Of a DNA stretch of 32,864 nt, positions 12,242-32,599 are shown one piece after another (within the stretch, counting starts at the first letter, position 1; each line of letters starts with the position of its first letter). Source of the DNA: an uncultured Lactobacillus sp. Its GTDB lineage: Bacteria; Bacillota; Bacilli; Lactobacillales; Lactobacillaceae. Below the pieces are notes generated by a model, which worked only from the letters and a program-made list of their open reading frames with translations, had not been told where the DNA came from and made no database searches. Location of the stretch: NCBI RefSeq assembly GCF_944327175.1, contig NZ_CALVGT010000048.1:1-32864 (forward strand). The letters run 5' to 3'. The position numbers and the translations under genes are program-made.

Positions 12242-13069
12242 TTAAACTTTTTCTTTCATCATCTGCAGATACTTAGCTTGGTCAGACTTTGGAACGCCCA
12301 GTGCGTCTAGTGCCTCTTCTGCAGAAACGTTAAACTTTACCATTACACTCAGAGCGTTTTTTACGGTTGTCTCATAGATGCCTTCATTGCGGCCTTCATC
12401 AACGCCGAGCTTGCGCTCATGGCGTAAAGTTGTCTCGTATTCCAATCTGTTCGCCCTCCATTCTTGATTATGATTGTAGTAATCCATCTTCTCGGCGATG
12501 TCATTGATCAGAGCATTCTCGCGGTCAACTTGGCCATTCATCAGATCCAAGAACTTCTGCATGGTCGGACTGACTTTGCCGCTCACTCCTTTTGAGTTGA
12601 CGTAGATGACGTGAGTGCCATCGCCAAGTGCCCGGTGCGTTTTCGGGCAATACACGATATAATTTGAAACCCGCTCCTTGTCCCCGAACTGGTCAAAGGG
12701 AGAGAAGATAATTACGAACATCGGTGGCAAATCATCGTAGTCAGTCCCGGCCAGCAAAGTAGTCATGTCAACCAAAGCCTTGTAATAGCGGCTCCGCTTG
12801 GGCTGGAAATCCCGGGAGAGCTGCATTTCGATGTCGTAGATCCGCCCTCGTTCGTCAAAGGCCTGGATATCCAACCGGATAGCCTTGTCCTCACGGCCAC
12901 CCTTGATTTGTGACTGGGCTTTGGTCGTCACCTTTTTAATCTTGAGTTCTGGCAACAATTCTTGCAAGAGCCGGGTGCAGATCTGTTCATCGCTCATCAC
13001 CGCGAAAAACATAAAATCGTCAGTAATGCCGATCGGTTCGTACTGGTCCAAATTATTTTCCTTGCTCAT
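12242..13069 (-). CDS. Rpn-family PD-(D/E)XK nuclease
   Basis: A 275-residue member of the Rpn/transposase_31-like family of PD-(D/E)XK nucleases, implicated in RecA-independent recombination and, in related work, in phage defence. The core is visible: a helical N-terminus with DDFMFFAVM, Asp67 in RLDIQA, the Glu81-Met-Gln83 motif (IYDIEMQ) and RSRYYKAL. The C-terminal third is helical and ends in a small three-helix motif (SAEEALDALGVPKSDQAKYL) shared with the partial protein at the window end. I chose ATG 13069, with AAAGGA 11 bases upstream, because ATG 13081 has no ribosome site. It is monocistronic, with its own terminator. DNA target and biological role unknown. Confidence 0.83.
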   Translation of the reverse strand: MSKENNLDQYEPIGITDDFMFFAVMSDEQICTRLLQELLPELKIKKVTTKAQSQIKGGREDKAIRLDIQAFDERGRIYDIEMQLSRDFQPKRSRYYKALVDMTTLLAGTDYDDLPPMFVIIFSPFDQFGDKERVSNYIVYCPKTHRALGDGTHVIYVNSKGVSGKVSPTMQKFLDLMNGQVDRENALINDIAEKMDYYNHNQEWRANRLEYETTLRHERKLGVDEGRNEGIYETTVKNALSVMVKFNVSAEEALDALGVPKSDQAKYLQMMKEKV

Positions 13070-13223
13070 ATTATAAAGCATCCTTTCACTGGTTAGCTAT
13101 TTTTACCCCTCCATTTACTAGTACGTTTTTTCGGCAAAAATTTTCTGACAAATTCAATTTATTTGAAGGAAATGGCGATAAAACCCCAAAACTCTTTACA
13201 CTACTTGCTCAGAGTAAAGAAAA

Positions 13224-13269: not shown

Positions 13270-14865
13270 TTAGTCCAAACGGTTGAGGAGCTCCTTCAAG
13301 AAGTCGTAAGTGCTGCCGACGTAGCGGTAGTCTGAATCTTCGAAGACGATAGCGTTTGGGTTGGTGTTGACGGAGATGATGTTTTCAGCATGGTCAACAG
13401 TAAAGGTGTATTGCGGCGCGCCGGCAATCCCCAGGTTGATCAAAACTTGCGGCTTGATCTTGTGGCCGTTGACACCGAGCTGCTGGCCACGGTTGAAGTC
13501 TGAGCCGACCATTGGTCTGGTAACCCCGATTTCAGCACCCAGCTTTTCAGCTACTTGCTTGGCCAGAGCGATAGTCTCCGGCTGGTTGGCACCGCGGCCC
13601 AGAGCCAGGACGATCTTAGCCTTTGGCAGGCCGGCTGCTTGTGATGGGCTGCTTACCGCGTCAACCGCGCCGGCTGGAGTCTTGGCTGCTTCCAAAAGCG
13701 GCAGGATCTGGTCAAGGTCAGTCAAGTCAGCTTGCTTTCTTGCCACTTCCTGGCTTGGTACATCAGCCATTTCAGCGTTGCTGATTTCCGTGTACATCTT
13801 TTCGATTGTGCCTTCAGCGATTTCCATGGCTCTGGCGTCTCTTATCAGGTGTTCCGGAGCAAATTCAGCGCTGTAGCCGTAGCCACCCATGATCTGCAGG
13901 GTCAAGTCGCAGGATTCAACCGCTGCCTTGCTCCCGAAGCACTTAGCCATAGCGGATTGTTCCATGTATGGCTGGCCGGCGTCCTTCAAGCGGGCTGCTT
14001 CTTGGTAAACCAAACGGGTCAGTTCTTTGTTGGTTGCAATCTTGCTGATCTTGTACTGGGTAACCTGCATGTCCTTGAGCAGGGTCTTGCCAGACTTGCG
14101 CTTAGCCGCGTAGTTTTTGGCAATATCAAGGGCGTGTTCCTGGATCCCGGTCAAAACGGCCCCCATCAAGTAGCGGGCATCATCGTGGGCGTTGTTGGCA
14201 ATTTCCAAACCTTGTCCCCGTTTGCCCAGCATGTTTTCCGGACCAACTTCGATCTGGTTCATGACAACTTCACCGCAAGGAATCCCCCGCAGGCCGATGA
14301 ACTTTTCAACATAGCCGAAGGAGAAGCCCGGCATCCCCTTGTCCACGATAAAGACTGAATATTCATTAGGACCAGTCTTCACGTTGACTGAGTAAACTTG
14401 AGCCAGGGTCCCGTTGGTAATCATAACCTTGTCGCCGTTGATGATCCAGCGGCCATCCTTTTCAACAGCGTAGGACTGGTGGGCACTTGGGTTGGAGCCG
14501 CCTTCTGGTTCAGTGTTGGAGAAGCCAAGGATGGCTTGGGCGCCCCAGGCAAAGTAGCGCTCCTTAGCAGCGTCAGTGCCGTACTTGGCCAGCTGGTCAC
14601 AGCTCTTGTAGTGGCCTTCCAGCATTACGCCGACACTGGCGTTGGCCTTGGCCAGGATGTTGACGATCTTGCCGGCGGTCATGGCGCTGACGCCTAAGCC
14701 GCCATATTCTTTAGGAATTTTTGCCTTCAAAAGGCCCAGGTCAACGATCTTCTGGAAAAGGCCGTTTGGCAGCTTGGCCTGGCGGTCGATCTGCAGGTCA
14801 AAAGGTGCTACGTCCTTGTCTGCCAATTGCTGAACGGCTTGTAAAAGTTCGGTTTCATTAGTCAT
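13270..14865 (-). CDS. Acyl-CoA dehydrogenase fused to ETF-alpha FAD domain
   Basis: A 531-residue two-domain flavoprotein. Residues 1 to about 365 are an acyl-CoA dehydrogenase: FAD/substrate motif GFSNTEPEGGS (114-124), IMGGYGYSAEFAPEHLIRDA (325-344) and the catalytic base Glu351 in AEGTIEKMY. After a linker, residues 413-531 match the C-terminal FAD domain of electron-transfer flavoprotein alpha: LALGRG, LGAEIGVTRPMV, GVNGHKIKPQVLINLGIAGAPQY, SVNTNPNAIVF. The N-terminal half of ETF-alpha and all of ETF-beta are missing here. Residues expected to bind FAD are largely kept. The fusion could pass electrons directly from or to the acyl-CoA flavin, but partner and direction are unknown. It is monocistronic, with a terminator after the stop and no beta-oxidation genes nearby. 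Confidence 0.88.
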   Translation of the reverse strand: MTNETELLQAVQQLADKDVAPFDLQIDRQAKLPNGLFQKIVDLGLLKAKIPKEYGGLGVSAMTAGKIVNILAKANASVGVMLEGHYKSCDQLAKYGTDAAKERYFAWGAQAILGFSNTEPEGGSNPSAHQSYAVEKDGRWIINGDKVMITNGTLAQVYSVNVKTGPNEYSVFIVDKGMPGFSFGYVEKFIGLRGIPCGEVVMNQIEVGPENMLGKRGQGLEIANNAHDDARYLMGAVLTGIQEHALDIAKNYAAKRKSGKTLLKDMQVTQYKISKIATNKELTRLVYQEAARLKDAGQPYMEQSAMAKCFGSKAAVESCDLTLQIMGGYGYSAEFAPEHLIRDARAMEIAEGTIEKMYTEISNAEMADVPSQEVARKQADLTDLDQILPLLEAAKTPAGAVDAVSSPSQAAGLPKAKIVLALGRGANQPETIALAKQVAEKLGAEIGVTRPMVGSDFNRGQQLGVNGHKIKPQVLINLGIAGAPQYTFTVDHAENIISVNTNPNAIVFEDSDYRYVGSTYDFLKELLNRLD

Positions 14866-21904: not shown

Positions 21905-23131
21905 TTAAGCTGCCCCCTTCTTGGCCTGGATTTCCTTGAGGCCTGGCAGGGTGATCATGACCAGGAAGCTGATGATATAGAGGGCGGACAAGAAGCCCAT
22001 GACCACGTACAGGTTGTAGTGGTCCATCAAGGCACCGATGATGACGGAGGAGAAGCCCCCGATGGCCCGGCCGGTATTCATGATCAAGTTATTGGCCGTG
22101 GACCGGATTTCAGTCGGGTAGAGCTGGCTGATTACCGCCCCGTAGCCACCGAACATCCCATTGGAGAAGAAGCCGGTCAAGGCTCCGGCCAAAAGCATGG
22201 CCCAGTAGCTGGTCACGTTGACGATGGCAAAGACCACGACCGCGCTGCCCAAAAGGAAGATGCCGAAGGACCAGCGGGGACCGATCTTGTCCATGATCGT
22301 CCCGAAGACCATCATCCCAATGCTCATGCCGACGATGGTAGCGATCATCCAGTAAGAAGAGCCGGAAACTGACATGCCCTGCTTCTTCTGCACGATTGAC
22401 GGCAGCCAGTTCATCAAGCCAAAGTAGCCGGCGATCTGCACGATCGTCATCAGCATCAGGCCCAGGGTCTGCAAAGCCAGGCGGGGCGTCTCAAACAAGC
22501 GGCCGAAGGAGATCTTTTCACTCGTTTCTTCCGCCTTCTTGTGAGCGGCCAAAAATTCATCGCTTTCTTTGACGTGGCGGCGGACAAAGTAGGTCAAAAC
22601 AACCGGCACTACCCCAAAGAGGAAGAGGGTGTTCCAGCCGTAAGCCGGAATGATCCAGGCAGCTAGAAGAGCAGCCATGATAGACCCGATTTGGCCGCCC
22701 ACGGCCGCCACCGAACTGGCCCGGCCAATTTGATTAGCCTGGAAGTTTTCCGCGATCAAGGCAATCCCGACCCCGTATTCACCGCCGGCCCCGATCCCGG
22801 CTAAGAAGCGGAGGGCATAGAGGGCGGTGATGTTGTGGACGAAGTAGGTCAAGCCAGTCGCAATGGCAAAAAGAAAGATCGTATAGCTGAAAGTCTTGAC
22901 CCGGCCGATACGATCTCCTAGCAGCCCAAAGAGCGCGCCACCGAAGAACATTCCGAGGTTGGTAAAGGTTCCGATCCAGCCGCCGGCCGCGGAGCTGATG
23001 TGCATCTGCGCGATGATTTCCGACAGGGAGAAAGACAGGAACATGACGTCCATGTTTTCCAGCAGGAAGCCGGATGACATGGAAGCCAAAACCCACTTTT
23101 GGTTAGTGGACATTGAGCTGGTATTATCCAT
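21905..23131 (-). CDS. MFS transporter, aromatic/hydroaromatic acid:H+ symporter-like
   Basis: A 408-residue major facilitator with about 12 spans and a central cytosolic loop at residues 190-210. The motif GLLGDRIGRVKTF follows span 2, and FLAGIGAGGEYGVG marks the metabolite/aromatic acid:H+ symporter groups (AAHS/MHS), which carry organic acids such as shikimate, benzoates or citrate. GGAGG lies 11-12 bases before ATG 23131. The promoter on the minus strand is TTGACA (23215-23220) and AATAAT (23192-23197) with 17 bases between. Its position beside the quinate/shikimate-type genes suggests a cyclic carboxylic acid as substrate, which is inference. Confidence 0.82.
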   Translation of the reverse strand: MDNTSSMSTNQKWVLASMSSGFLLENMDVMFLSFSLSEIIAQMHISSAAGGWIGTFTNLGMFFGGALFGLLGDRIGRVKTFSYTIFLFAIATGLTYFVHNITALYALRFLAGIGAGGEYGVGIALIAENFQANQIGRASSVAAVGGQIGSIMAALLAAWIIPAYGWNTLFLFGVVPVVLTYFVRRHVKESDEFLAAHKKAEETSEKISFGRLFETPRLALQTLGLMLMTIVQIAGYFGLMNWLPSIVQKKQGMSVSGSSYWMIATIVGMSIGMMVFGTIMDKIGPRWSFGIFLLGSAVVVFAIVNVTSYWAMLLAGALTGFFSNGMFGGYGAVISQLYPTEIRSTANNLIMNTGRAIGGFSSVIIGALMDHYNLYVVMGFLSALYIISFLVMITLPGLKEIQAKKGAA

Positions 23132-23191
23132 TATTAACTTATACCTCCAAAATTAATGCTCACGGACATTACTTATTTTGTATCGGTACCA

Positions 23192-23220
23192 ATTATTTGC
23201 GTTTTCCTTAAGATTGTCAA
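23192..23220 (-). promoter_or_regulatory. Promoter of the AAHS-like MFS gene
   Basis: -35 TTGACA at 23215-23220, 17-base spacer, -10 AATAAT at 23192-23197 on the minus strand. The rest of the roughly 450-base gap up to 23582 is AT-rich, with only the cre-like palindrome at 23523-23536 recognisable. Confidence 0.6.
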
Positions 23221-23522
23221 GGGGCCTTGCAAAACAATCGTTATTTAATTGCTCAGTCCGGTCGCCAACCGGCGGGGAAGGGGGGCAAAGCCAGACCTGG
23301 CTTTCGGTTTGAAGAAAGACAGAAAAACATGAAGTGAGAAATGTAATTTACTGATATCCAAGAGATGCCTCGCATAAAAATTTGTCTGCTGATTAAGTAT
23401 CACAATTTTACTCTATTGATTCCTAAGATTTTAATAGATTTTCTCTAATCATAATTTGCCGGCGATAAACTGTTTTTTAATCAGATGAATCTATTAATAA
23501 AAATGAGTATTCTATTATAAAG

Positions 23523-23536
23523 TGTAAACGGTTTAC
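23523..23536. promoter_or_regulatory. cre-like palindrome upstream of MFS gene
   Basis: TGTAAACGGTTTAC contains the perfect palindrome GTAAAC-G-GTTTAC and matches cre at 12 of 14 positions. It overlaps the promoter region (TATACT at 23539-23544) of the following transporter. A LacI-family protein such as CcpA would be expected to repress here. Confidence 0.5.
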
Positions 23537-23582
23537 TGTATACTGAAATTAAGTGAGAAAAATAACAAAAGGAGTGAAAACT

Positions 23583-24764
23583 ATGTCAGCTAAGAAGCAC
23601 AGATATGCCGCCACGGCTTCTACCGTTTACTTTTCATACTTTATGATGGGGATTGGAATGTCCCTTCTGGCCCAGTTCAAGCCCCAGTTTGCCAGCCTCT
23701 GGCATTCCTCAATTTCCGGAGTCTTGAGCGTGGTCAGCGCGGTTGGGATCGGGGGGATCGTCTCCATCTTGATCACTGGTCCTATTTCGGACCACTTTGG
23801 CCGCCGGGCCTCAGCCGTCATCGGTCACTTATTGTGGGCTATTTACTATATCGGCCTGCTTTATGCCCCGAATTTTGCGGTTGCCTACATCATCGGGATC
23901 CTGGGCGGGATCGCCAATTCCTTCTTGAACGCGTCCAACTTCCCGGCCTTGATGGAAATCTTTCCAGAAAGTGCCTCAGTAGCAGGCCTCATGTCTAAGT
24001 TTGCCATCAATATCGGCCAATTCTGCCTGCCTTTAGCCATCCTGCTGGGGACGGCCCTGGGCTCTGGCTACCGGACCGTCTTCATGCTGGCCGGCATTTT
24101 GTACATCGTCATGGCCTTGATTCTGGCCTTTTCACCCTACCCAGACCAGGTCACTGGCCCGAAAAAGCAGGAAAAAGCCAAGCACAACTTCAACCTGGGC
24201 GTCTGGAGCCTGGTTCTGATGGGCTTCACCTCCACGGCTGCCTTCCTGCTCTGGATCAATACCTACCAGGAACTGGCCAAGTCCTACGGGATTGCCAACC
24301 CCAGCTCCTTGCAGTCAGTCTACGCGGTTGGGGCCTCAATTGCCGTCCTTTTCAACTCCTTTATCATTAAAAAAGGAGTCAAGGAAATCGACATCTTGAT
24401 CTGGTACCCCCTGCTCAGCGCGGCTGGCCTGCTTTTGGCCTACTTCATCAAGGCCCCGCAAGTGCTCTACCTGACCAGTCTGGCGGTCGGCTTCTTCGCG
24501 GCCAGCGGTCTTTACCAGCTGGGTCAAAGCGTCCTGGGCCAGATGTACCCGGACATGAAGGCGACCGTCCAGTCTTGGGGCGGTTTCTTCTCAGCCTTCG
24601 CCAACTTTGCCATCATCCAGCTGGCGGCTTCCATTACGGCCCGGACTGGCGCGGCTGCCCCGCGTTTGATCCTGCTTTTGAACGTGGCCAATATGCTGGT
24701 CGGTACGGCTTTGGCCTTCGTAGTCAAGCGGGTTGGCCAGAAAAAACAGGGTAAGGCTGATTAA
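23583..24764 (+). CDS. MFS transporter, YdiN/YdiM-like
   Basis: A 393-residue major facilitator with 12 predicted spans. TVYFSYFMMGIGMSLLAQ, the loop motif ITGPISDHFGRRA and GILGGIANSFLNASNFPALMEIFPE resemble E. coli YdiN/YdiM, carriers of unproven substrate encoded next to ydiB and aroD. It is more diverged than the second YdiM-like carrier at 28954. AAAGGAGTG (23568-23576) selects ATG 23583; the earlier in-frame GTG/ATG at 23553 lacks a ribosome site. It lies upstream of the FMN/FAD reductase, separated by a terminator. Probable uptake or exchange of quinate, shikimate or their reduced products, by context. Confidence 0.8.
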   Translation: MSAKKHRYAATASTVYFSYFMMGIGMSLLAQFKPQFASLWHSSISGVLSVVSAVGIGGIVSILITGPISDHFGRRASAVIGHLLWAIYYIGLLYAPNFAVAYIIGILGGIANSFLNASNFPALMEIFPESASVAGLMSKFAINIGQFCLPLAILLGTALGSGYRTVFMLAGILYIVMALILAFSPYPDQVTGPKKQEKAKHNFNLGVWSLVLMGFTSTAAFLLWINTYQELAKSYGIANPSSLQSVYAVGASIAVLFNSFIIKKGVKEIDILIWYPLLSAAGLLLAYFIKAPQVLYLTSLAVGFFAASGLYQLGQSVLGQMYPDMKATVQSWGGFFSAFANFAIIQLAASITARTGAAAPRLILLLNVANMLVGTALAFVVKRVGQKKQGKAD

Positions 24765-24796
24765 TACATTATTTTCAATAAAGACGATCTATTAAT

Positions 24797-24839
24797 AAAA
24801 AGACCGGGACTTATTTTTTTAAGTAACCGGTCTTTTTAT
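24797..24839 (+). terminator. Intrinsic terminator
   Basis: AAAAAGACCGG (24797-24807) pairs with CCGGTCTTTTT (24827-24837). The next promoter's -10 box TATAAT overlaps its end at 24837-24842. Confidence 0.85.
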
Positions 24840-24841
24840 AA

Positions 24842-24855
24842 TGAAAGCGATTGTA
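24842..24855. promoter_or_regulatory. cre-like site at the flavoprotein promoter
   Basis: TGAAAGCGATTGTA matches cre at 12 of 14 positions and starts at the last base of the TATAAT box (24837-24842). Binding would block transcription start, so catabolite repression of the flavoprotein is likely. Confidence 0.5.
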
Positions 24856-24882
24856 GAAAAATAATTAGCAGGAGAAGATCTC

Positions 24883-26667
24883 ATGAGCAAAGAAACACTT
24901 AAAGCGCAAGCACAAGGCCGTAACGGAGAAATCGACTTTGACATCGAAATTGAAAACCGGGAAATTTCCGACATTAAGGTAACCAAGAGTTCAGAAACCA
25001 AGGCTGTCTTCAACCAGGCCTTCGGCCAGCTCCGCGACAACGTTCTGGCTGCCAACAGCTTCAACGTTGACGCTGTTTCCGGGGCAACCATTATGACTAA
25101 GGCCATCCTGGAATCCGGCCAAAAGGCGCTGGATGAAGCAGGTCTCATGCCAGCACCTCGTCCAGTTGACAGAAGCCACAAGGCTGTTACTTTAGATGTT
25201 GATGTAGCTGTTGTCGGCTCCGGCATGGCCGGCCTCATCGCTGCCTGCCGGGCCTTGTCCATGGGCAAGAAGGTCGTTGTTTTGGAAAAGAACGGCTATG
25301 TCGGCGGGGCTTCCATCTTAAACGGGTCCAACGTGACCGCTACCGGGTCAAAACTGGCCAAGAAACTCTTCGGCTCTTTAGCTGAAGAAGACTCAGCCCA
25401 GCGCCTTTTTAACGACATCACCAGAGAATGCCGGGGGACCAACTACCCTGAAATGTCCCACCTGCTGGCTGACAACATCGGCAAAGCTATCGACTTTATC
25501 ACTGACTTTGCTGGCTTGACCTACCAAAAGGCGGAAACCCAGACCATTGAACACAGCGTCAACCGGCAAGTGGAAATGCCAAGCCAAAGCTCTTACGAAG
25601 TCGTAACCAAGGTGGCTGATGCCTTTAAGAGCAAGGGCGGGATCCTTTTGACCGACGCCCGAGTTGAAGAATTAAAGAAGAACCCTGCCGGCGTTTTGAC
25701 CAGCCTGGTTGCTGAAGGCAAGCACCAAACCACCACGGTCAACTTCAAGTCCTTGGTATTAGCTGCCGGTGGCTGGGGAGCCAAGGACTTCAAGGAACAC
25801 AAGACTGACATTCCTTACTACGGGCCAATGACCTCAACTGGTGACTACTTCGGCTTTGCCAAGGGCATGAACCTGGTGACCCGGAACCTGGACTGGTACA
25901 AGGTTTACCCGCACGGCTTGGAAGTTGAACCTGGTATTGCCAAATTGACTACTTACTCAACTAAGGAAGCCAGCGACATGGGGGCAATTTTTGTCAACCG
26001 GGCTGGCAAGCGGGTGGTCAACGAAAGCCTGCCTTACACCCACTTCCGTGACGCGATCGCCAATGAAAAGGACAAGACCTGCTTCGTCTTGATGGACCAG
26101 CGGATCTGGGACCGCTACTACGAACTGATGCTTAAGTACGGCTTCACCGCTGAAGAAGTCCAAGGCTTCTTTGCTAATGATGGCAAAAAGAGCCCGGTTC
26201 TGGTCAAGGGTGACCTGGCCACTGTAGCGCAAAAGGCTGGCATCGACTACGGCAACTTGAAGGAAACCTTCGACCACTACCAGGAATACGCCAAGGCTGG
26301 CCGCGATCCGGAATTCGGCCGCGACGCCAAGTTCCTTCACGAGCTGGAAGGCGACACTTACTACGTCATTGAACAAAAGCTCCGTTTCTGCACCACCATG
26401 GGCGGCTACGAAGCCACTAAGGACATGCAGCTTCTGGACAACGACTTTAAGCCAGTAGCCAACTTCTACGCTGCCGGCGAACTGGTTGGCGGGGCTAACG
26501 GCAAGGACTCAATGCCTTCAATGATGAACTCCTGGTCCTATGCTTCCGGTTTCGTGGCTGGTACGGCAGCTGCTGACAATGCCAACAACTACGACGTTGA
26601 CGTTGTTACCAGCGCCAGCCATGCTCCGGCTCCTAAGCCAGAAGCAACCTCCGGTGCCAGCCACTAA
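24883..26667 (+). CDS. FMN/FAD-dependent reductase, fumarate-reductase-like fold
   Basis: A 594-residue soluble flavoprotein. Residues 1-85 form an FMN-binding domain with VDAVSGAT, where Thr69 is the expected site of covalent FMN attachment by an ApbE-type transferase. Residues 105-560 form an FAD-dependent fumarate reductase-type domain with VVGSGMAG (111-118) and LEKNGYVGGAS. Compared with Shewanella Fcc3, the proton-donor arginine is kept (Arg389, FRDAIA), but the carboxylate-binding residues differ: His365 becomes Tyr342, His504 becomes Thr504 and Arg544 becomes Ser543. Fumarate is therefore unlikely. Relatives reduce urocanate, acrylate or cinnamates. Context suggests a cyclic enone such as 3-dehydroshikimate. 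The biased codon use implies high expression. GGAGAAG precedes the ATG. Confidence 0.88.
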   Translation: MSKETLKAQAQGRNGEIDFDIEIENREISDIKVTKSSETKAVFNQAFGQLRDNVLAANSFNVDAVSGATIMTKAILESGQKALDEAGLMPAPRPVDRSHKAVTLDVDVAVVGSGMAGLIAACRALSMGKKVVVLEKNGYVGGASILNGSNVTATGSKLAKKLFGSLAEEDSAQRLFNDITRECRGTNYPEMSHLLADNIGKAIDFITDFAGLTYQKAETQTIEHSVNRQVEMPSQSSYEVVTKVADAFKSKGGILLTDARVEELKKNPAGVLTSLVAEGKHQTTTVNFKSLVLAAGGWGAKDFKEHKTDIPYYGPMTSTGDYFGFAKGMNLVTRNLDWYKVYPHGLEVEPGIAKLTTYSTKEASDMGAIFVNRAGKRVVNESLPYTHFRDAIANEKDKTCFVLMDQRIWDRYYELMLKYGFTAEEVQGFFANDGKKSPVLVKGDLATVAQKAGIDYGNLKETFDHYQEYAKAGRDPEFGRDAKFLHELEGDTYYVIEQKLRFCTTMGGYEATKDMQLLDNDFKPVANFYAAGELVGGANGKDSMPSMMNSWSYASGFVAGTAAADNANNYDVDVVTSASHAPAPKPEATSGASH

Positions 26668-26777
26668 TATTGCTAACAATTCACAATTTTTTCTCCCAGG
26701 CAAAAAAAAGGCTATGTGAAAACGTACACTTTGTTCTTTTTTGGCCACGGGAACCTTCTTCCTTACAAAAACTTGCT

Positions 26778-26811
26778 AAAAAAGCCCAAGCTGATGCTTG
26801 GGCTTTTTCTT
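26778..26811. terminator. Bidirectional terminator
   Basis: AAAAAGCCCAAGC pairs with GCTTGGGCTTTTT around TGAT. It lies between the flavoprotein gene and the convergent LysR gene. Confidence 0.9.
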
Positions 26812-26812
26812 T

Positions 26813-27733
26813 TTAAACCAGCTTATGTTCGTTATTGTAATGCTTCCGGCAGTAGGATTTGATAAATTGTTCGAATCTGGTTATGGCTGGGGTCAAGAAG
26901 TGGTCGGACTTTTTCACGACAAAAATCGGGTGAACGCCGACATTTTCATCAATGTGCAAGAGCTTGACCGTCCGTGGGTCCAGCTGGGGCAAATGCGGCA
27001 CGATGGCTACCCCGTAGCCCCAGTGAACGAAGCCGATAATAGTGTGGTCTTCCATGGACTCCATGATGATCTTCGGTTTGACGCTGGCGTCAGCAAACAT
27101 CTTGTCCAGGCGGGGGCGCAGGCCGCTGTTTTTGCTGTAGTAGATCATCGGGAACTTGGCCAAATCAGCCAGGGAGACAGAGTCCTTTTTGGCTAGAGGA
27201 TTGGAGAAGGGGACGACAGCCAGCATTTCCTGGTCAATCAGGTGGGAGATGTCGACCTTGTCCTCCAGGCCAGGCAGGTCAGGGACTGAGGAGACGACCA
27301 GGTCCAGGTCATCATTGACCAGCTGGTCAACCAAATCGTCAGTGGTTCCCTGCACGAAGGAGAAGGAAATGTTCTTGGTGTCTTTTTCCTGCTTAAATTT
27401 ATAGATCAGCTGGGGAATCAAGTCCTGGCCCATGGTAAAGGTGAAGCCGACCCTGATATGGCCCCGGTTGACGTCCAGCAATTCAGCGATGTACTCGCCG
27501 CCCCGGTCCAGGTCGCTCAAGCCGCTTTTGACGTATTCCAGGTATATCTTGCCGTAGTTGGTCAAGCGGATGTTCCGGCCTTCTTTTTCAAAAAGGGGCA
27601 CGCCGAGTTCTTCCTCAATGCTGCTGATAGCATAGGACAGGGAAGGCTGGGAGATGCCCAGCTTTTCGGCCGCCTTGGCCATGTGCTCCGTCTTAGCCAG
27701 CTCGACGAAGAAACGCAAATGTCGAATGTTCAT
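26813..27733 (-). CDS. LysR-family regulator, probably of hydroaromatic genes (QuiR-like)
   Basis: A 306-residue LysR-type regulator: winged helix at residues 1-60 (MNIRHLRFFVELAK...SQPSLSYAISSIEEELGVPLFEK), linker helix, and a co-inducer domain with the usual GFTFTMGQ and YGVAIVPHL motifs. AGGTAAACATG with GGAGG upstream fixes the start at 27733. It is divergent from the first YdiB-like dehydrogenase gene, across a perfect inverted repeat with a T-N11-A core. In Listeria the LysR protein QuiR activates comparable quinate/shikimate genes on binding shikimate; the same role is likely here but is inferred from context rather than from specific ligand residues. Confidence 0.85.
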   Translation of the reverse strand: MNIRHLRFFVELAKTEHMAKAAEKLGISQPSLSYAISSIEEELGVPLFEKEGRNIRLTNYGKIYLEYVKSGLSDLDRGGEYIAELLDVNRGHIRVGFTFTMGQDLIPQLIYKFKQEKDTKNISFSFVQGTTDDLVDQLVNDDLDLVVSSVPDLPGLEDKVDISHLIDQEMLAVVPFSNPLAKKDSVSLADLAKFPMIYYSKNSGLRPRLDKMFADASVKPKIIMESMEDHTIIGFVHWGYGVAIVPHLPQLDPRTVKLLHIDENVGVHPIFVVKKSDHFLTPAITRFEQFIKSYCRKHYNNEHKLV

Positions 27734-27792
27734 GTTTACCTCCGAATTATGGACAACAGGTTTCCATGCCTATATTATACCGTTAATCTAGA

Positions 27793-27815
27793 ATTGATAA
27801 AATGCTTTTATCAAT
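27793..27815. promoter_or_regulatory. LysR operator palindrome
   Basis: ATTGATAAAA (27793-27802) and TTTTATCAAT (27806-27815) form a perfect 10-bp inverted repeat around TGC, containing the LysR T-N11-A pattern. It lies between the divergent regulator and dehydrogenase genes. The same half-site ATTGATAAAA recurs at 31579-31588 ahead of the second dehydrogenase gene. Confidence 0.7.
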
Positions 27816-27846
27816 AATTTTGCTTTGCCTTATTTATCACGAAGAC

Positions 27847-27864
27847 TGAAAACGATAACATAAT
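27847..27864. promoter_or_regulatory. Perfect cre site overlapping the -10 box
   Basis: TGAAAACGATAACA (27847-27860) fits TGWAANCGNTNWCA at all 14 positions. It overlaps the presumed -10 CATAAT (27859-27864) of the quinate/shikimate dehydrogenase gene, a position for CcpA repression. The -35 region is poor, as expected of an activator-dependent promoter. Confidence 0.75.
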
Positions 27865-27915
27865 AGTGAATTGAGAAAAAAGTAACTTGTTAAAAGTTTA
27901 AAGGAGATTCCAGAA

Positions 27916-28851
27916 ATGGCAGACAAAAGAAACAACGAGATTGAAGAAACGAAGATTCAAGGCGTTAACGGCCCAATTACCGGCTGGCTTGACGGGCACA
28001 CGATTTTGGTCGGCTTGATGGCTTACCCGATCCGCCACACCATGTCACCAACCATGCACAACAACGCTTTTGCCAAGTTGGGCTTGAACGGGGCTTACCT
28101 TTGCTTTGAAATCGACAACGAAAAGCTTCCAGGTGCTATCGACGCTATCCGAACACTGGACATGCGGGGCTCAAATGTTTCAATGCCTAACAAGAAGAAG
28201 GTCATTCCTTACCTTGACAAGCTGGACAAGACTTCACAAATGTGTGACGCCGTAAACACCATCGTCAACGAACATGGCGTTTTGACCGGCTACACCACTG
28301 ACGGCATGGGCTGGCTGCGGGCCTTGAAGAAGGACGGCCAAGACGTTAAGGGCAAGATCATCACTTTGGCCGGTGCCGGCGGTGCCGCTACTCCAATCGC
28401 TGTTACTGCTTCCCTGGAAGGCGCCAAGGAAATCCGCATCTTCAACCTGGACGACGACAAGTGGGCACAAGCAGTCAAGAACGTTGAAACCATCAACAAG
28501 GAAACTGACTGCGTAGCCAGCGTTCACCACTTGGAAGATAAGGAAGACTTCAAGAAGTCAATCGCTGAATCAGACATCTACTGCGACGCTACCAGCGTAG
28601 GGATGAATCCATTGCAAGACCAGACTTTGGTTGAAGACCCATCATGGTTCCACGAAGACATGGTTGTTTCCGACACTGTTTATGCTCCACGCAAGACCAA
28701 GCTGATGGAAGTTGCTGAAAAGGCCGGCGTAAAGCACATCTACAACGGGATCGGCATGATGATCGAACAAGGTGCCGCTGCCTTCAAGCTGTGGACTGGC
28801 AAGGAAATGCCAACCGACTACATCCAGGAAATCATGGATGCCAACAAGTAA
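27916..28851 (+). CDS. ydiB: YdiB-like quinate/shikimate dehydrogenase (copy 1)
   Basis: A 311-residue dehydrogenase of the AroE/YdiB family, interconverting quinate with 3-dehydroquinate or shikimate with 3-dehydroshikimate. Stretches such as AYPIRH-SP, MRGxxVSMPNK, GYTTDGMGW and EQGAxxFKLWTGKEMP follow E. coli YdiB rather than biosynthetic AroE. Catalytic Lys93 and Asp129 are present, as is the dinucleotide loop GAGGA (153-157). The acidic residues after IFNLDDD instead of the NRxxxK of NADP enzymes favour NAD. The first substrate serine (SxSP motif) is Thr42. A 25-residue N-terminal extension precedes the fold. AAAGGAG gives the start. It leads a group with the YdiM-like carrier and aroD. 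Confidence 0.9.
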   Translation: MADKRNNEIEETKIQGVNGPITGWLDGHTILVGLMAYPIRHTMSPTMHNNAFAKLGLNGAYLCFEIDNEKLPGAIDAIRTLDMRGSNVSMPNKKKVIPYLDKLDKTSQMCDAVNTIVNEHGVLTGYTTDGMGWLRALKKDGQDVKGKIITLAGAGGAATPIAVTASLEGAKEIRIFNLDDDKWAQAVKNVETINKETDCVASVHHLEDKEDFKKSIAESDIYCDATSVGMNPLQDQTLVEDPSWFHEDMVVSDTVYAPRKTKLMEVAEKAGVKHIYNGIGMMIEQGAAAFKLWTGKEMPTDYIQEIMDANK

Positions 28852-28896
28852 TCTGTAATTTTTAACCAGCAAACTTAATAGAAATTGGTTTAAATC

Positions 28897-28939
28897 AATA
28901 CCTTCTGCAGCTGAATATTTGCCGACAGAAGGTATTTTT
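28897..28939 (+). terminator. Intergenic terminator or attenuator
   Basis: AATACCTTCTG (28897-28907) pairs with CAGAAGGTATT (28926-28936), followed by T's. It lies between the dehydrogenase and carrier genes; the carrier's ribosome site GGAAGG follows directly. Partial read-through would make the downstream genes less expressed. Confidence 0.75.
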
Positions 28940-28953
28940 GGAAGGACAAAATC

Positions 28954-30168
28954 ATGAAAAAGAACAAGTACATGATGACTGCCTTCATGCTGTACATGAA
29001 CTACTTCGTGCACGGGATGGGCGTTATTATTATCTCACAAAATGCATCCAGCCTGGCCCAGCAATGGGGTACGACCGCGACCGGTGCCATCGCCGTGGTT
29101 TCCTCACTGGGTATCGGCCGGATCATCAACCTTTTGATCTCAGGTATCCTGTCTGACAAGTTCGGCAGAAAGCCATTCGTGCAACTGGGGATCGTCTTCT
29201 ACCTGGTCTTCTTTGTTGGCCTGCTCTTCTCTAAGAGCGTGGCTGTGGCCTACATTCTGGGGATCTGCGCCGGGATGGCCAATTCCTTCCTGGACACTGG
29301 TACTTACCCAGCCCTGATGGAAATCTTCCCAGCTGCCAAGGGGACTTCCAACGTTGTTTTGAAGGCCTTCATCTCTGGTGCCCAGTTCCTCTTGCCATTC
29401 ATCGTCAGCGGCCTGGCTGCTGCTCACGCATGGTACGGCTGGTCAATCGTTATCCCAGCTGCCATCCTGGTTATCACCTTCATCTACTTCCTCAAGGGTG
29501 CCTTCCCGGACTCCAAGGCAGTTGCTGAAGCTGAAGAAAAGAAGGCTGAAGAAGCTGAAGCTGCCGCAGCCGGCGACAAGCCAGTTGTTAAGTCCGACAA
29601 GTGGCTGGACGGTACCTTGTTCATCCTTTACGGTTATATTTCTCAAGCTACCTTCTACATGGTTAGTCAAATGCTGACTCAATACGGGCAACAAATCAGC
29701 CACATGAACGACGGTGCTGCCCACGCCCTGGTTTCCTGGTACTCACTTGGTTCAATCTGCTGCGTTCTGTTTACTGCAGTGATCGGCCGCAAGTTCAAGG
29801 AAGTGCAATTGGTACCAATTTACACCTTGGGTGCCTTCCTCGCCATCTTCTTGATGTGGGCATACCCAGCTAGCGCGGTATTGATGGGCATTCTGGCCTT
29901 CGCCGTTGGTTTCTTCGCCGCTGGTGGCGTAATGCAGCTGGGCTTGACGGTTATGGCCGACTTCTTCCCAGCTGGCAAGGGGACAGTTACTGGCTTCTTC
30001 TACACTGCCGGTTCAATCGCTTCTTTCACTATTCCTTTGGTAATCAACGCTTTGCCAGGGATGAGAGAAGTTATGTTCTTTGACGTGATCGTTGCCCTGC
30101 TGGGCTTCGTGGACACGACCATCATCGCTATCCGTTACAAGAAGCTGTTTGGTTCACTGAAGAAGTAA
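28954..30168 (+). CDS. ydiM: MFS transporter, YdiM-like
   Basis: A 404-residue 12-span major facilitator very like E. coli YdiM: LYMNYFVHGMGVIIIS, VVSSLGIGRIINLLISGILSDKFGRKPF, AYILGICAGMANSFLDTGTYPALMEIFP, LYGYISQATFYMVSQMLTQYGQ and GFFAAGGVMQLGLTVMADFFP. The cytosolic centre loop holds an acidic, alanine-rich insert (about residues 189-210). GGAAGG precedes the ATG. In E. coli the homologue also neighbours ydiB and aroD, which supports transport of quinate, shikimate or a product. Specific substrate not proven. The codon bias suggests strong expression. Confidence 0.87.
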   Translation: MKKNKYMMTAFMLYMNYFVHGMGVIIISQNASSLAQQWGTTATGAIAVVSSLGIGRIINLLISGILSDKFGRKPFVQLGIVFYLVFFVGLLFSKSVAVAYILGICAGMANSFLDTGTYPALMEIFPAAKGTSNVVLKAFISGAQFLLPFIVSGLAAAHAWYGWSIVIPAAILVITFIYFLKGAFPDSKAVAEAEEKKAEEAEAAAAGDKPVVKSDKWLDGTLFILYGYISQATFYMVSQMLTQYGQQISHMNDGAAHALVSWYSLGSICCVLFTAVIGRKFKEVQLVPIYTLGAFLAIFLMWAYPASAVLMGILAFAVGFFAAGGVMQLGLTVMADFFPAGKGTVTGFFYTAGSIASFTIPLVINALPGMREVMFFDVIVALLGFVDTTIIAIRYKKLFGSLKK

Positions 30169-30201
30169 TTTTTTAAAAAAGCAAAAACAGAAGGTATTAA
30201 T

Positions 30202-30960
30202 ATGACTACTGTAAAAGTTAGAAACATTGTTTTAGGCGAAGGCCTGCCAAAGATTGCCGTGCCAAACGTTGGCGTGACCGAAGAAGAAATCCTGGCTTCA
30301 GCCAAGGAAATCGCGGCTGCCAAGCCGGACATCATGGAATGGCGGATCGACTACTACGAAGCCGGCATCAAGGACAATGAAAAGCTGATCGCTACGGCCA
30401 AGGCTTTGCGGGACGCGGTTGGCGAACTGCCAATCCTGGTTACTTTCAGAACCAAGAACGAAGGCGGCGTCCTGGAACTCGGTGAAGACGAATACCTGGA
30501 TCTGGTGGCTACTGTAGTAACCAACCGCTTGGGCGACGCGGTTGACATCGAACTTTTCCACGATGAAGAAAGAGTCAAGGACCTGGTTAAGCAGGCTCAC
30601 AACTACAATGTGGTAGTTATCATGAGCAACCACGACTTTGAAAAGGTGCCAACCAAGGATGTCATCGAATTCCGCTTGAAGAAGATGGCTGAATTGGGTG
30701 CTGACGTGCCAAAACTGGCCTGCATGCCGCACAGTGCTGACGACGTTTTGACTCTTTTGAGCGCTACTAATAACGCCCACAAGGCACTTTCAACGCCAAT
30801 CATCACCATGGCAATGGCCGACTTGGGCAAGGTCAGCCGGATTGCCGGCCAAGTCTTCGGCTCCTGCCTGTCATTCGGTGCCGTTGGCAAGGCTTCAGCA
30901 CCTGGCCAATTGTCAATCGAAGACTTGAGAAACGCTGAAAATTACTTGGAATTGCGCTAA
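30202..30960 (+). CDS. aroD: Type I 3-dehydroquinate dehydratase
   Basis: A 252-residue class I enzyme converting 3-dehydroquinate to 3-dehydroshikimate through a Schiff base. Catalytic His of SNHDF (about residue 143) and Lys of PKLACMP (about residue 170) are visible, with MEWRIDYY (substrate Arg), TFRTKNEGG and GSCLSFGAVGKASAPGQ. It lies 33 bases behind the YdiM-like gene and is probably cotranscribed. Its ribosome site is within ACAGAAGGTATT, a 12-mer also present in the hairpin at 28925-28936. With the YdiB-like enzyme it gives the catabolic steps from quinate to 3-dehydroshikimate; biosynthetic use is also possible. Confidence 0.95.
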   Translation: MTTVKVRNIVLGEGLPKIAVPNVGVTEEEILASAKEIAAAKPDIMEWRIDYYEAGIKDNEKLIATAKALRDAVGELPILVTFRTKNEGGVLELGEDEYLDLVATVVTNRLGDAVDIELFHDEERVKDLVKQAHNYNVVVIMSNHDFEKVPTKDVIEFRLKKMAELGADVPKLACMPHSADDVLTLLSATNNAHKALSTPIITMAMADLGKVSRIAGQVFGSCLSFGAVGKASAPGQLSIEDLRNAENYLELR

Positions 30961-30988
30961 TAACCAAGAGAAACGCTTTTCCAGAAAA

Positions 30989-31028
30989 GAAAGCTCCCGT
31001 ATCAATCGCGATACGGGAGATTTTTTGG
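30989..31028. terminator. Intrinsic terminator
   Basis: CTCCCGTATC pairs with GATACGGGAG around AATCGC, then six T's. It ends the aroD transcript. Confidence 0.9.
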
Positions 31029-31050
31029 CGGGGATATATTTTTTAGTCGC

Positions 31051-31146
31051 TTAAATCTTCACCGTCACTGTCTTGCCCTCTTCACTGATTTGGTCCTTGA
31101 CCCCGATGCCGTTTTCCACTATCCAGAGCGGCTTGTGGTAACCTCA
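31051..31146 (-). pseudogene. Fragment of a GH1 6-phospho-beta-glucosidase
   Basis: The minus strand encodes YHKPLWIVENGIGVKDQ and a short tail ending at TAA 31051-31053. The KPLxIVENG sequence holds the nucleophile Glu and is diagnostic of glycoside hydrolase family 1. Only about 30 of some 480 residues remain, with a stop just upstream of the fragment. The parent would have hydrolysed phosphorylated beta-glucosides such as cellobiose-6-phosphate. Confidence 0.72.
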
Positions 31147-31165
31147 CTTTTTTTAATTTGCCAAA

Positions 31166-31259
31166 ATAAAAACCCGCAAGCCAGGATCTTCACGTAAAAA
31201 AGTATAGAAAGAATCCTGTGTATGCTTGCGGGCTCATGCCTAGTCGAACTAGTAACACA
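31166..31259 (-). promoter_or_regulatory. BglG/LicT-type antiterminator site 2 with terminator
   Basis: On the minus strand GTGTTACT...GGCATGAG (31233-31259) has the form of a ribonucleic antiterminator (RAT) and overlaps the left arm of a terminator with stem GCCCGCAAGC/GCTTGCGGG (about 31173-31232) and a T run. Binding of an antiterminator protein would prevent the terminator. Confidence 0.72.
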
Positions 31260-31264
31260 CCTGG

Positions 31265-31367
31265 TTTAAGCGAAAAAAGAACCTACCAGAAAAAATCAAG
31301 GAGCACTGGCAACTAGTGCCAGCGGCTGATTTCGTGATAGGTTCATGCCTGATTTAACAGTAACACG
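31265..31367 (-). promoter_or_regulatory. BglG/LicT-type antiterminator site 1 with terminator
   Basis: GTGTTACTGTTAAATCAGGC (minus strand, within 31341-31367) matches the RAT consensus closely. It overlaps a terminator whose stem begins GAACCTA and closes TAGGTTC with a T-run at 31265-31271. It is the first of two tandem RAT-terminator pairs. Confidence 0.75.
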
Positions 31368-31382
31368 CTTAAGACATTTATT

Positions 31383-31411
31383 ATGATAGCGCTTCCCAAA
31401 AACGCTGTCAA
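31383..31411 (-). promoter_or_regulatory. Orphan promoter with cre site
   Basis: Consensus -35 TTGACA (31406-31411), 17-base spacer and -10 TATCAT (31383-31388) on the minus strand. A cre-like sequence (31384-31397, 12 of 14 matches) overlaps the -10. It reads into the two RAT hairpins and the GH1 fragment. Confidence 0.75.
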
Positions 31412-31436
31412 TAGAAAGTGTGGAATTTTTTTATTT

Positions 31437-31575
31437 TTACCGGTGAGTGACCCGCCAGATATGAAGAATCAAGTAAATCTGGTCATCGGCAGACAAAGTC
31501 CAGTCGGCCTCGCGCTTGAGCTATTGGGCAATCCGGTCAACGGTGTCTTTATTGCTGGGAAAACAATAGAAAAAG
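31437..31575 (-). pseudogene. C-terminal remnant of a BglG/LicT antiterminator gene
   Basis: The minus strand encodes NKDTVDRIAQ, an in-frame TAG, then LKREADWTLSADDQIYLILH and IWRVTHR before TAA 31437-31439. The pattern (DxxLxLILHIxRV) is the end of PRD2 in BglG/LicT-family antiterminators. Its place directly upstream of the RAT hairpins is the standard bgl operon layout, so this was the cognate regulator. It is truncated and interrupted. Confidence 0.68.
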
Positions 31576-31578
31576 TTG

Positions 31579-31629
31579 ATTGATAAAAGTGGCAGAATGC
31601 CTTTCTTTATAAGCTGGCAAGCGCTAGCA
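31579..31629 (+). promoter_or_regulatory. Putative regulatory region of dehydrogenase copy 2
   Basis: Half-site ATTGATAAAA (31579-31588), identical to one arm of the LysR palindrome at 27793-27815, precedes a cre-like GGCAAGCGCTAGCA (31616-31629, 11 of 14). Both lie within 90 bases of the start codon at 31667. Confidence 0.4.
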
Positions 31630-31666
31630 TATTTTTGAAAGATAAAAACAAAAGGAACAGTAAAAG

Positions 31667-32599
31667 ATGACTGACGAAAGAAACAATGATATTTTACCGG
31701 TAAAAATCAACGGGATTACCGGACCGGTGACAGGCTGGCTGGACGGGCACACAATCTTGCTGGGCCTGTTCGCTAATCCAATCAGACACTCAGTTTCACC
31801 GACTATGCACAACAACGCGATGGCTAAGCTAGGCTTGAATGGGGCTTACCTCTGCTTTGAGATCGGGCCGGACCGGATCGGGGACGCGGTCAAGGCCTTG
31901 CGGACTTTGGATATGCGGGGCGCCAACGTATCTATGCCAAACAAGAAGGAGATCATCCCTTACCTGGACAAGCTGGACCCGGCAGCGGAAATTTGCGGGG
32001 CAGTCAACACGGTGGTTAATGACCATGGCTTTTTGACTGGTTATACCACTGATGGGACTGGCTGGCTGCGGTCATTAAGAGAAGATGGCCAGGACGTTAA
32101 GGGGCAGGTCATGACTTTGGCCGGCGCTGGGGGGGCAGCGATTCCAATTGCCGTCGCCACGGCTATGGCTGGGGCCAAGGAGATTAGAATTTTTAACATT
32201 CACGATCGCAACTGGGAACCGGCCAAGGGCAAGGTAGCCGCGATCAATGAGGCGACTGCCTGCGTTTGCAGCTTGAACCCGATGGAAGACAAGGAAGCTT
32301 TCAAGCAGTCGATCGCTGAATCCGGGATCTACTGCGACGCGACCGGGGTAGGGATGCCGCCGCTGGACGACCTGTCACTGGTGGAAGACCCATCCTGGCT
32401 GCATGAGGACATGGTTGTCAGCGACACGGTTTATGAACCGCGGGAGACCAAGCTGATGCGGATTGCCAAAGAGGCCGGCGTCAAGCACATCTATAACGGT
32501 CTGGGTATGGTGGTCGGCCAGGGGGCAGAGTCCTTCAAGCTCTGGACTGGCAAGGAGATGCCGGTTGACTACATTAAGGAAATCATCGCTAAGGCGTAA
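31667..32599 (+). CDS. YdiB-like quinate/shikimate dehydrogenase (copy 2)
   Basis: A 310-residue paralogue of the gene at 27916. An ungapped comparison by eye gives about 213 identities in 310 positions (69%). Catalytic Lys93 and Asp129 and the GAGGA loop are kept, and the first substrate serine is Ser42 rather than Thr42. The cofactor loop reads IFNIHDRNW, so cofactor preference may differ. Codon use is less restricted than in copy 1 (more GGG, CGG, GCG), suggesting lower expression. AAAGGAAC precedes the ATG. It is monocistronic with its own terminator. It may act on a different hydroaromatic substrate, perhaps the ring-reduced ketone. Confidence 0.88.
   Translation: MTDERNNDILPVKINGITGPVTGWLDGHTILLGLFANPIRHSVSPTMHNNAMAKLGLNGAYLCFEIGPDRIGDAVKALRTLDMRGANVSMPNKKEIIPYLDKLDPAAEICGAVNTVVNDHGFLTGYTTDGTGWLRSLREDGQDVKGQVMTLAGAGGAAIPIAVATAMAGAKEIRIFNIHDRNWEPAKGKVAAINEATACVCSLNPMEDKEAFKQSIAESGIYCDATGVGMPPLDDLSLVEDPSWLHEDMVVSDTVYEPRETKLMRIAKEAGVKHIYNGLGMVVGQGAESFKLWTGKEMPVDYIKEIIAKA

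Follow-up and report, generated by a model that had tools for sequence, protein, structure and literature searches.

Lactobacilli reportedly reduce quinate and shikimate, as Whiting and Coggins are said to have described in 1971, and a 1974 paper is said to deal with a hydroaromatic dehydrogenase of the same lactobacillus activity; Lactobacillus pastorianus is reported to be a classic quinate reducer. The literature searched, which covered few subscription papers, named no gene behind this activity of lactobacilli, and that is not proof of absence. The described flavoproteins closest to the one considered here are flavocytochrome c3, urocanate reductase and HcrB of L. plantarum (lp_1425), the latter presumably built of an FMN_bind and an FAD_binding_2 domain. 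Here we analyse a predicted reductase with these same two Pfam domains, FLAV (24883..26667, + strand), encoded in a stretch of 32,864 nucleotides (the window) from an uncultured Lactobacillus sp. (assembly GCF_944327175.1, contig NZ_CALVGT010000048.1). FLAV is very probably tied in function to quinate/shikimate metabolism, and its predicted reaction, the reduction of a ring C=C bond as an electron sink in a hydroaromatic module, appears likely.

The substrates proposed for this locus and the kind of organism are those of the activity reported in the 1970s. The cluster is present in Secundilactobacillus paracollinoides, the NCBI name for L. pastorianus (record L035, in which LysR, MFS and dehydratase genes are split), and in genome G258 (L100), which has the module plus TIM-barrel, SDR and dehydrogenase genes. 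The present genome (1.72 Mb, 96% complete) is close to L. nasalidis, with 95% identity in FLAV, and L. delbrueckii, with 97% in the adjoining lactate dehydrogenase. The eight genes first read from the letters of the window, which encode three MFS carriers, the FMN/FAD reductase, a LysR regulator, a type I dehydroquinase and two YdiB-like dehydrogenases, were all recovered as open reading frames with matching families. Downstream of FLAV on the + strand lie the YdiB-like quinate/shikimate dehydrogenase SDH1 (27916..28851), the type I 3-dehydroquinate dehydratase DHQ (30202..30960) and a second YdiB-like dehydrogenase, SDH2 (31667..32599). The window spans its entire contig, which ends 265 bases past SDH2 and so truncates the cluster; in L. 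equicursoris (L025) SDH2 is followed by a further MFS gene, a LysR gene and an HcrB-like flavoprotein.

Linkage of FLAV to hydroaromatic genes

FLAV homologues (E <= 1e-60) were found in 35 of the 301 Lactobacillaceae genomes searched. In 31 of these 35, DHQ was located within 10 kb of FLAV on the same contig, with a gap of 0.9-1.1 kb in 22 of the 31, which is the opposite of the rare ydiB/aroD neighbourhood that the original prediction had named as evidence against itself. The HcrB-like paralogue FLAVx, present in 63 of the 301 genomes, served as a control: among the matches listed, DHQ was within 10 kb in 2 of the 63, and both of these genomes (G098, G272) also have FLAV close by. This control is imperfect, as the place of DHQ is unlisted for at least nine of the 63 (G037, G070, G099, G124, G148, G171, G192, G216, G257), and so are the second DHQ matches of a few further genomes. 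Fisher's test gave p = 8e-19 for FLAV against paralogue linkage, and 3.5e-12 when the nine unlisted genomes were counted as neighbours; because the genomes are related and the 301-genome sample overlaps with that of 38 named-record loci, the counts are not independent and p is merely indicative. FLAV, SDH and DHQ occur together in 29 of those 38 loci. The remaining nine comprise five with at most 2,514 bases 3' of FLAV (L009, L012, L017, L024, L040), one with an arrangement of FLAV and an OYE-family gene (L037), one with FLAV and a short DHQ and no SDH (L044), one with FLAV pieces only (L043) and one with a remnant only (L046). Among 180 genomes of Bacilli, including the present one, the sole other FLAV match had 33% identity.

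What we regard as our best evidence comes from three genomes without a FLAV match (G225, G050, G108), in which the immediate neighbour of DHQ is a long gene of the OYE family (Oxidored_FMN). The best NCBIfam match of the G225 and G108 copies is BaiCD, an enzyme that reduces an enone, at a score under the cut-off. The replacement was checked by the placement of seven close homologues (at least 74% identity): three lie beside DHQ, two beside FLAV (G271, G122), one 1.6 kb from SDH (G169), and one contains stops (G298). The BaiCD-type protein shares with FLAV the slot beside DHQ, yet it belongs to a different family and can be analogous at most, not homologous. Two unrelated reductase families in one slot point to reduction of the C=C bond that SDH and DHQ generate, in 3-dehydroshikimate or shikimate.

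A Pfam search of the whole genome gave no match for chorismate synthase (AroC) or dehydroquinate synthase (AroB), whereas the same searches found chorismate synthase in 14 of 14 and dehydroquinate synthase in 11 of 14 control genomes. The sole DHQ match of the genome (E <= 1e-20) is that of the window, and its sole two YdiB-type matches (E <= 1e-60) are SDH1 and SDH2. The absence of AroB and AroC indicates that the enzymes of the window do not serve aromatic synthesis, and a biosynthetic role was rejected for the present genome. The original claim that no other biosynthetic aro genes are present thus holds genome-wide for AroB and AroC; aroA, aroK and a type II dehydroquinase were not searched for.

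Both dehydrogenases pass Pfam Shikimate_dh and align well to YdiB. SDH1 scored 331 bits against PDB 3tnl and 288 bits against YdiB (1npd), and SDH2 is 69% identical to SDH1. Each matches the quinate/shikimate model NF009390 of NCBIfam under its cut-off, and of the NCBIfam shikimate dehydrogenase models SDH1 passes two and SDH2 none. An SDH2-type gene is also found 3' of DHQ in L. equicursoris (L025). DHQ matches DHquinase_I and scores 231.8 bits with TIGR01093 (cut-off 139.3); compared with 3m7w, it retains the SNHDF and PK-A-MP stretches, which presumably supply the active-site His and the Schiff-base Lys of type I 3-dehydroquinate dehydratases.

Active site and predicted electron supply of FLAV

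The AlphaFold model of FLAV is usable (predicted local distance difference test score 83.4, predicted template modelling score 0.84). In Foldseek, urocanate and fumarate reductases rank at the top, followed by the ketosteroid dehydrogenase 4c3x and the cyclohexanone dehydrogenase 8am8, and together with the Pfam match (PF00890) this places FLAV in the FAD_binding_2 fold of fumarate reductases. Fold and FAD domain are thus common to FLAV, flavocytochrome c3 and urocanate reductase, but FLAV lacks the catalytic Arg and the His and Arg residues at the carboxylates; it has an FMN_bind domain, and Pfam gave no match to a haem domain.

In flavocytochrome c3, Arg402 is catalytic, and the His-His pair and Arg544 are placed at the substrate carboxylates. 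These positions were compared in an alignment of 59 FLAV rows (50 distinct) and 8 HcrB-like rows (6 distinct). At the place of Arg402, all 59 FLAV rows have Tyr385 (codon 26035..26037, + strand), and Tyr342 and Thr504 are equally invariant. The first His of the pair is replaced by Cys (30 rows) or Ala (29), the second by Thr (59), and Arg544 by Ser (55), Pro (2) or Ala (2). FLAVx, which judging by length and alignment would correspond to HcrB, retains the catalytic Arg, the His-His pair and the C-terminal Arg in all 8 of its rows; FLAV has the domain plan of HcrB, and its fused relatives are comparable, but it has Tyr and none of the rest of this active site. The FLAV profile scored the Arg402Tyr variant of flavocytochrome c3 (1jrz) at 153.5 bits, the wild type (1qjd) at 148.8 bits, and the Arg402Ala and Arg402Lys variants at 148.5 bits each, and this preference independently supports the alignment.

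The FMN_bind domain contains the motif D63-x-x-S-G-A-T69 (25069..25089, + strand), in which D63, G67 and A68 are invariant among 31 sequences and residue 69 is Thr in 30 and Ser in 29 of the 59 rows. It conforms to D-x2-(S/T)-G-A-(S/T), the flavinylation motif of the ApbE literature, and the genome has one ApbE gene (contig C5, 16181-17020); with motif and gene both present, FLAV is predicted to be flavinylated by ApbE. The association was followed in 79 compared stretches, namely the window, the 38 named-record loci and 40 stretches chosen by us after the 301-genome searches, several of which represent the same place twice. An ApbE-family gene is present in 13 of them; it adjoins FLAV in 10 (L034 and L099 being one place), stands two genes from it in L038/L103 (likewise a single place), and occurs without FLAV in L116. 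All three long FLAV homologues scanned (L031, L033, L034) have a C-terminal NADPH-dependent FMN reductase domain (FMN_red), so that NAD(P)H is the expected electron source of the fused forms.

Predicted ring reduction and alternative explanations

Linkage, the missing AroB and AroC, the fused FMN reductase, ApbE, the lost residues and the shared slot all support the original reading of the cluster as a quinate/shikimate reduction module. In this module, MFS carriers would import quinate or shikimate, and a YdiB-like dehydrogenase would convert them to 3-dehydroquinate or 3-dehydroshikimate and NADH. By its family function and kept motifs, DHQ would then dehydrate 3-dehydroquinate to 3-dehydroshikimate. 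Flavinylated FLAV, with NAD(P)H as the ultimate source of electrons, would reduce C1=C2 of 3-dehydroshikimate or shikimate, after which a dehydrogenase, perhaps SDH2, would use NADH to reduce the 3-ketone and give dihydroshikimate. On balance, each quinate or shikimate would allow one NADH to be reoxidised and would spare pyruvate from conversion to lactate. That FLAV acts on 3-dehydroshikimate or shikimate, what it yields, and the use of the pathway as an electron sink are inferences from the genes.

In other genomes the product may be processed further. Nine of the 79 stretches contain a TIM-barrel gene together with an SDR gene, and L089, L100 and L117 add two further SDH genes. Homologues of the TIM-barrel gene were found in 21 of the 301 genomes, and 13 of these have FLAV, compared with 2.4 expected. 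Its PDB matches are led by far by Lmo2234, named just as a protein, with IolI second. The inosose dehydratase IolE removes a hydroxyl from inosose, and the TIM-barrel gene beside the SDR could likewise act on the 5-hydroxyl, although this assignment is weak; IolE-like dehydration to a 3,4-diketone and subsequent reduction might yield 3,4-dihydroxycyclohexanecarboxylate in the carriers of both genes. The present genome has no TIM-barrel match at E <= 1e-40 and only distant SDR matches (32% identity at best), and hence dihydroshikimate rather than dihydroxycyclohexanecarboxylate is expected in it.

Several observations weigh against ring reduction by FLAV. Confidence in the structural model is low at about residues 300-360, the region of Tyr342, and UrdA likewise has Tyr there; two further flavoproteins encoded in the present genome (L004, L007) also show Tyr at position 385 in the alignment, and therefore neither tyrosine is singly a marker of a hydroaromatic substrate. 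The FLAV of the window does not carry the FMN reductase domain of the fused forms. In 4 of the 35 FLAV genomes no DHQ was found nearby: in G226, which has no DHQ match, the contig is 8.4 kb; in G122, DHQ and SDH are on a different contig from FLAV; in G099, a weak DHQ match has an unlisted place, and the 20 kb compared (L117) contain no DHQ but two more distant SDH genes; and in G019, FLAV is partial and the SDH piece near it has stops. Stops are also present in DHQ of G286 and in FLAV of G078 and G118, all among the 31 linked genomes. Finally, SDH-DHQ pairs occur without FLAV or OYE (L104, L105, L108) and alongside aroA/aroC/aroK-like genes (L111-L115), and for this reason such a pair alone does not imply reduction.

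In the main alternative, the bond reduced by FLAV is the side-chain C=C of caffeate or caffeoylquinate, and its place among quinate genes reflects the delivery of both halves by chlorogenic acid. A gene of the cinnamoyl/chlorogenate esterase family is found directly 5' of FLAV in L022 (9066-9818), and genes of the same group lie farther from FLAV in L023 (about 3 kb), L029 (about 8 kb) and L034/L035, which makes 5 of the 79 stretches (the family call comes from a search of the L022 protein alone, the others being assigned by grouping). Genes for a CoA-transferase, an acyl-CoA dehydrogenase, EtfB, EtfA, a CoA ligase and a thioesterase are placed just 5' of MFS-FLAV in seven Lactobacillus loci (L016, L019, L021, L027, L036, L039, L041), and L106 and L107 have a comparable set close to OYE-DHQ-SDH. 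In L019, the CoA-transferase, acyl-CoA dehydrogenase, CoA ligase and EtfA were confirmed by search, and EtfB and thioesterase were read from sequence; CarC of caffeyl-CoA reductase ranks fifth among the PDB matches of the acyl-CoA dehydrogenase. The set is reminiscent of a hydroxycinnamoyl-CoA reductase system. Both groups of genes favour chlorogenate as a natural source, and they also favour caffeoyl reduction, as does the relation of FLAV to the HcrB-like FLAVx, with which it shares 9 of the 79 stretches. However, it is FLAVx that keeps the Arg, His-His and Arg lost in FLAV, FLAV tracks DHQ far more closely than it does the esterase, and the gene that occupies its slot beside DHQ is an OYE; we consider a caffeoyl substrate of FLAV unlikely. 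The reverse reaction, desaturation of a reduced hydroaromatic ring in the manner of cyclohexanone and 3-ketosteroid dehydrogenases, is suggested by 8am8 and 4c3x ranking right behind the urocanate and fumarate reductases and by weak matches to ChcC-type enzymes of NCBIfam, far under their cut-offs. Identity to the two structures is only 18-20%, a desaturase would need an electron acceptor in a fermenting lactobacillus, and the fused FMN reductase domain suggests that electrons enter from NAD(P)H, which leaves desaturation quite improbable.

If FLAV were an ordinary fumarate reductase with unrelated neighbours, this would agree with the nearest folds and with the name under which a solved fragment, 2lfc, was deposited (fumarate reductase flavoprotein subunit); G258 FLAV is identical to this fragment, presumably from L. 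plantarum, over 151 of 151 aligned residues. With the catalytic Arg changed to Tyr and the His-His pair and C-terminal Arg replaced throughout the 59 rows, FLAV was rejected as a usual fumarate reductase, and the linkage to DHQ likewise makes this explanation very hard to credit. Salvage of quinate or shikimate for the synthesis of aromatic amino acids finds a parallel in the SDH-DHQ pairs of L111-L115 with their aroA/aroC/aroK-like neighbours. It appears extremely improbable here, as the 96%-complete genome lacks matches for both AroC and AroB and as such a route has no place for an FAD reductase.

With ring reduction by FLAV preferred, we tentatively consider a broader possibility, to which we give somewhat less than even chances. 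FLAV may be the founder of a class of flavinylated ring ene-reductases that have Tyr for the fumarate-reductase Arg, use 3-dehydroshikimate as substrate and are interchangeable with BaiCD-like OYE enzymes, and it may form one half of a chlorogenate-respiration island in several lactobacilli. There, an esterase would split caffeoylquinate, HcrB-like proteins or the CoA-transferase/acyl-CoA dehydrogenase/Etf set would reduce the caffeoyl half, and FLAV the quinate half; in L. plantarum-like genomes, the TIM-barrel dehydratase and the SDR would convert the product to 3,4-dihydroxycyclohexanecarboxylate.

Flanking genes and meaning for lactobacilli

All three carriers match Pfam MFS_1. MFS2 (23553..24764, +) is directly 5' of FLAV and MFS3 (28954..30168, +) lies between SDH1 and DHQ, a place that an MFS3-type carrier also takes in L011, L013, L021, L026 and L029, among others; 56 of the 79 stretches have a member of the MFS2/MFS3 group. 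MFS1 (21905..23131, -) resembles aromatic-acid/H+ symporters (TIGR00895, 247 bits, under the cut-off of 418), and its membership in the module is doubtful because it adjoins the module in just 2 of the 38 named-record loci, those of L. nasalidis (L009) and L. equicursoris (L025). The LysR regulator (26813..27733, -; Pfam HTH_1 and LysR_substrate) is divergent from SDH1, and its group occurs in 46 of the 79 stretches, the window counted. A perfect palindrome with 10-bp arms, ATTGATAAAA-TGC-TTTTATCAAT (27793..27815), in the divergent LysR/SDH1 promoter is a weak candidate operator; no palindrome of the same form was present between LysR and SDH in the other loci examined, and a shared operator sought upstream of MFS2, SDH1 and SDH2 gave nothing convincing. 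Rfam yielded no family at gathering score across the window. Between DHQ and SDH2, the 706 intergenic bases include a stable hairpin (31165-31240, +; -24.8 kcal/mol, z -4.8).

Some 10 kb before FLAV, the window encodes an acyl-CoA dehydrogenase fused to the FAD domain of electron-transfer-flavoprotein alpha (13270-14865, -; 531 aa), a fusion that looks unusual. The window also has a transposase-like gene of the PD-(D/E)XK family (12242-13081, -). In Secundilactobacillus (L033, L034, L035), genes for DAHP synthase and dehydroquinate synthase are near FLAV, the pair being directly 3' of it in L034/L035 and confirmed by search in L034; they could provide the module with dehydroquinate made de novo. 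The interval between lactate dehydrogenase and LysR in L. delbrueckii subsp. delbrueckii DSM 20074 (L046, 9640-10213) retains just 39 residues of MFS1 and the C-terminal 71 residues of FLAV; the compared stretch stops just beyond LysR, and the SDH and DHQ region is outside it.

Expression reports may already touch on this gene, if lp_3491 of L. plantarum is FLAV, which is our unconfirmed guess. In one report, lp_3491 (annotated EC 1.3.5.4) was up in carrot juice and was tied by its authors to a citrate-to-succinate route (PMC4895336). In another, lp_3490 and lp_3491 were up with cranberry proanthocyanidins under some conditions (PMC8004764). For Weissella cibaria, a further report describes ferulate as an electron acceptor, with acetate up and lactate and ethanol down (PMC13101492).

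If the proposed role of FLAV is true, an old activity without a gene would gain testable genes in tractable food bacteria. The annotation as fumarate reductase would be corrected, and an extra electron acceptor of plant-associated lactobacilli would be explained. Ring reduction would then join the known hydroxycinnamate reductions of lactic acid bacteria.

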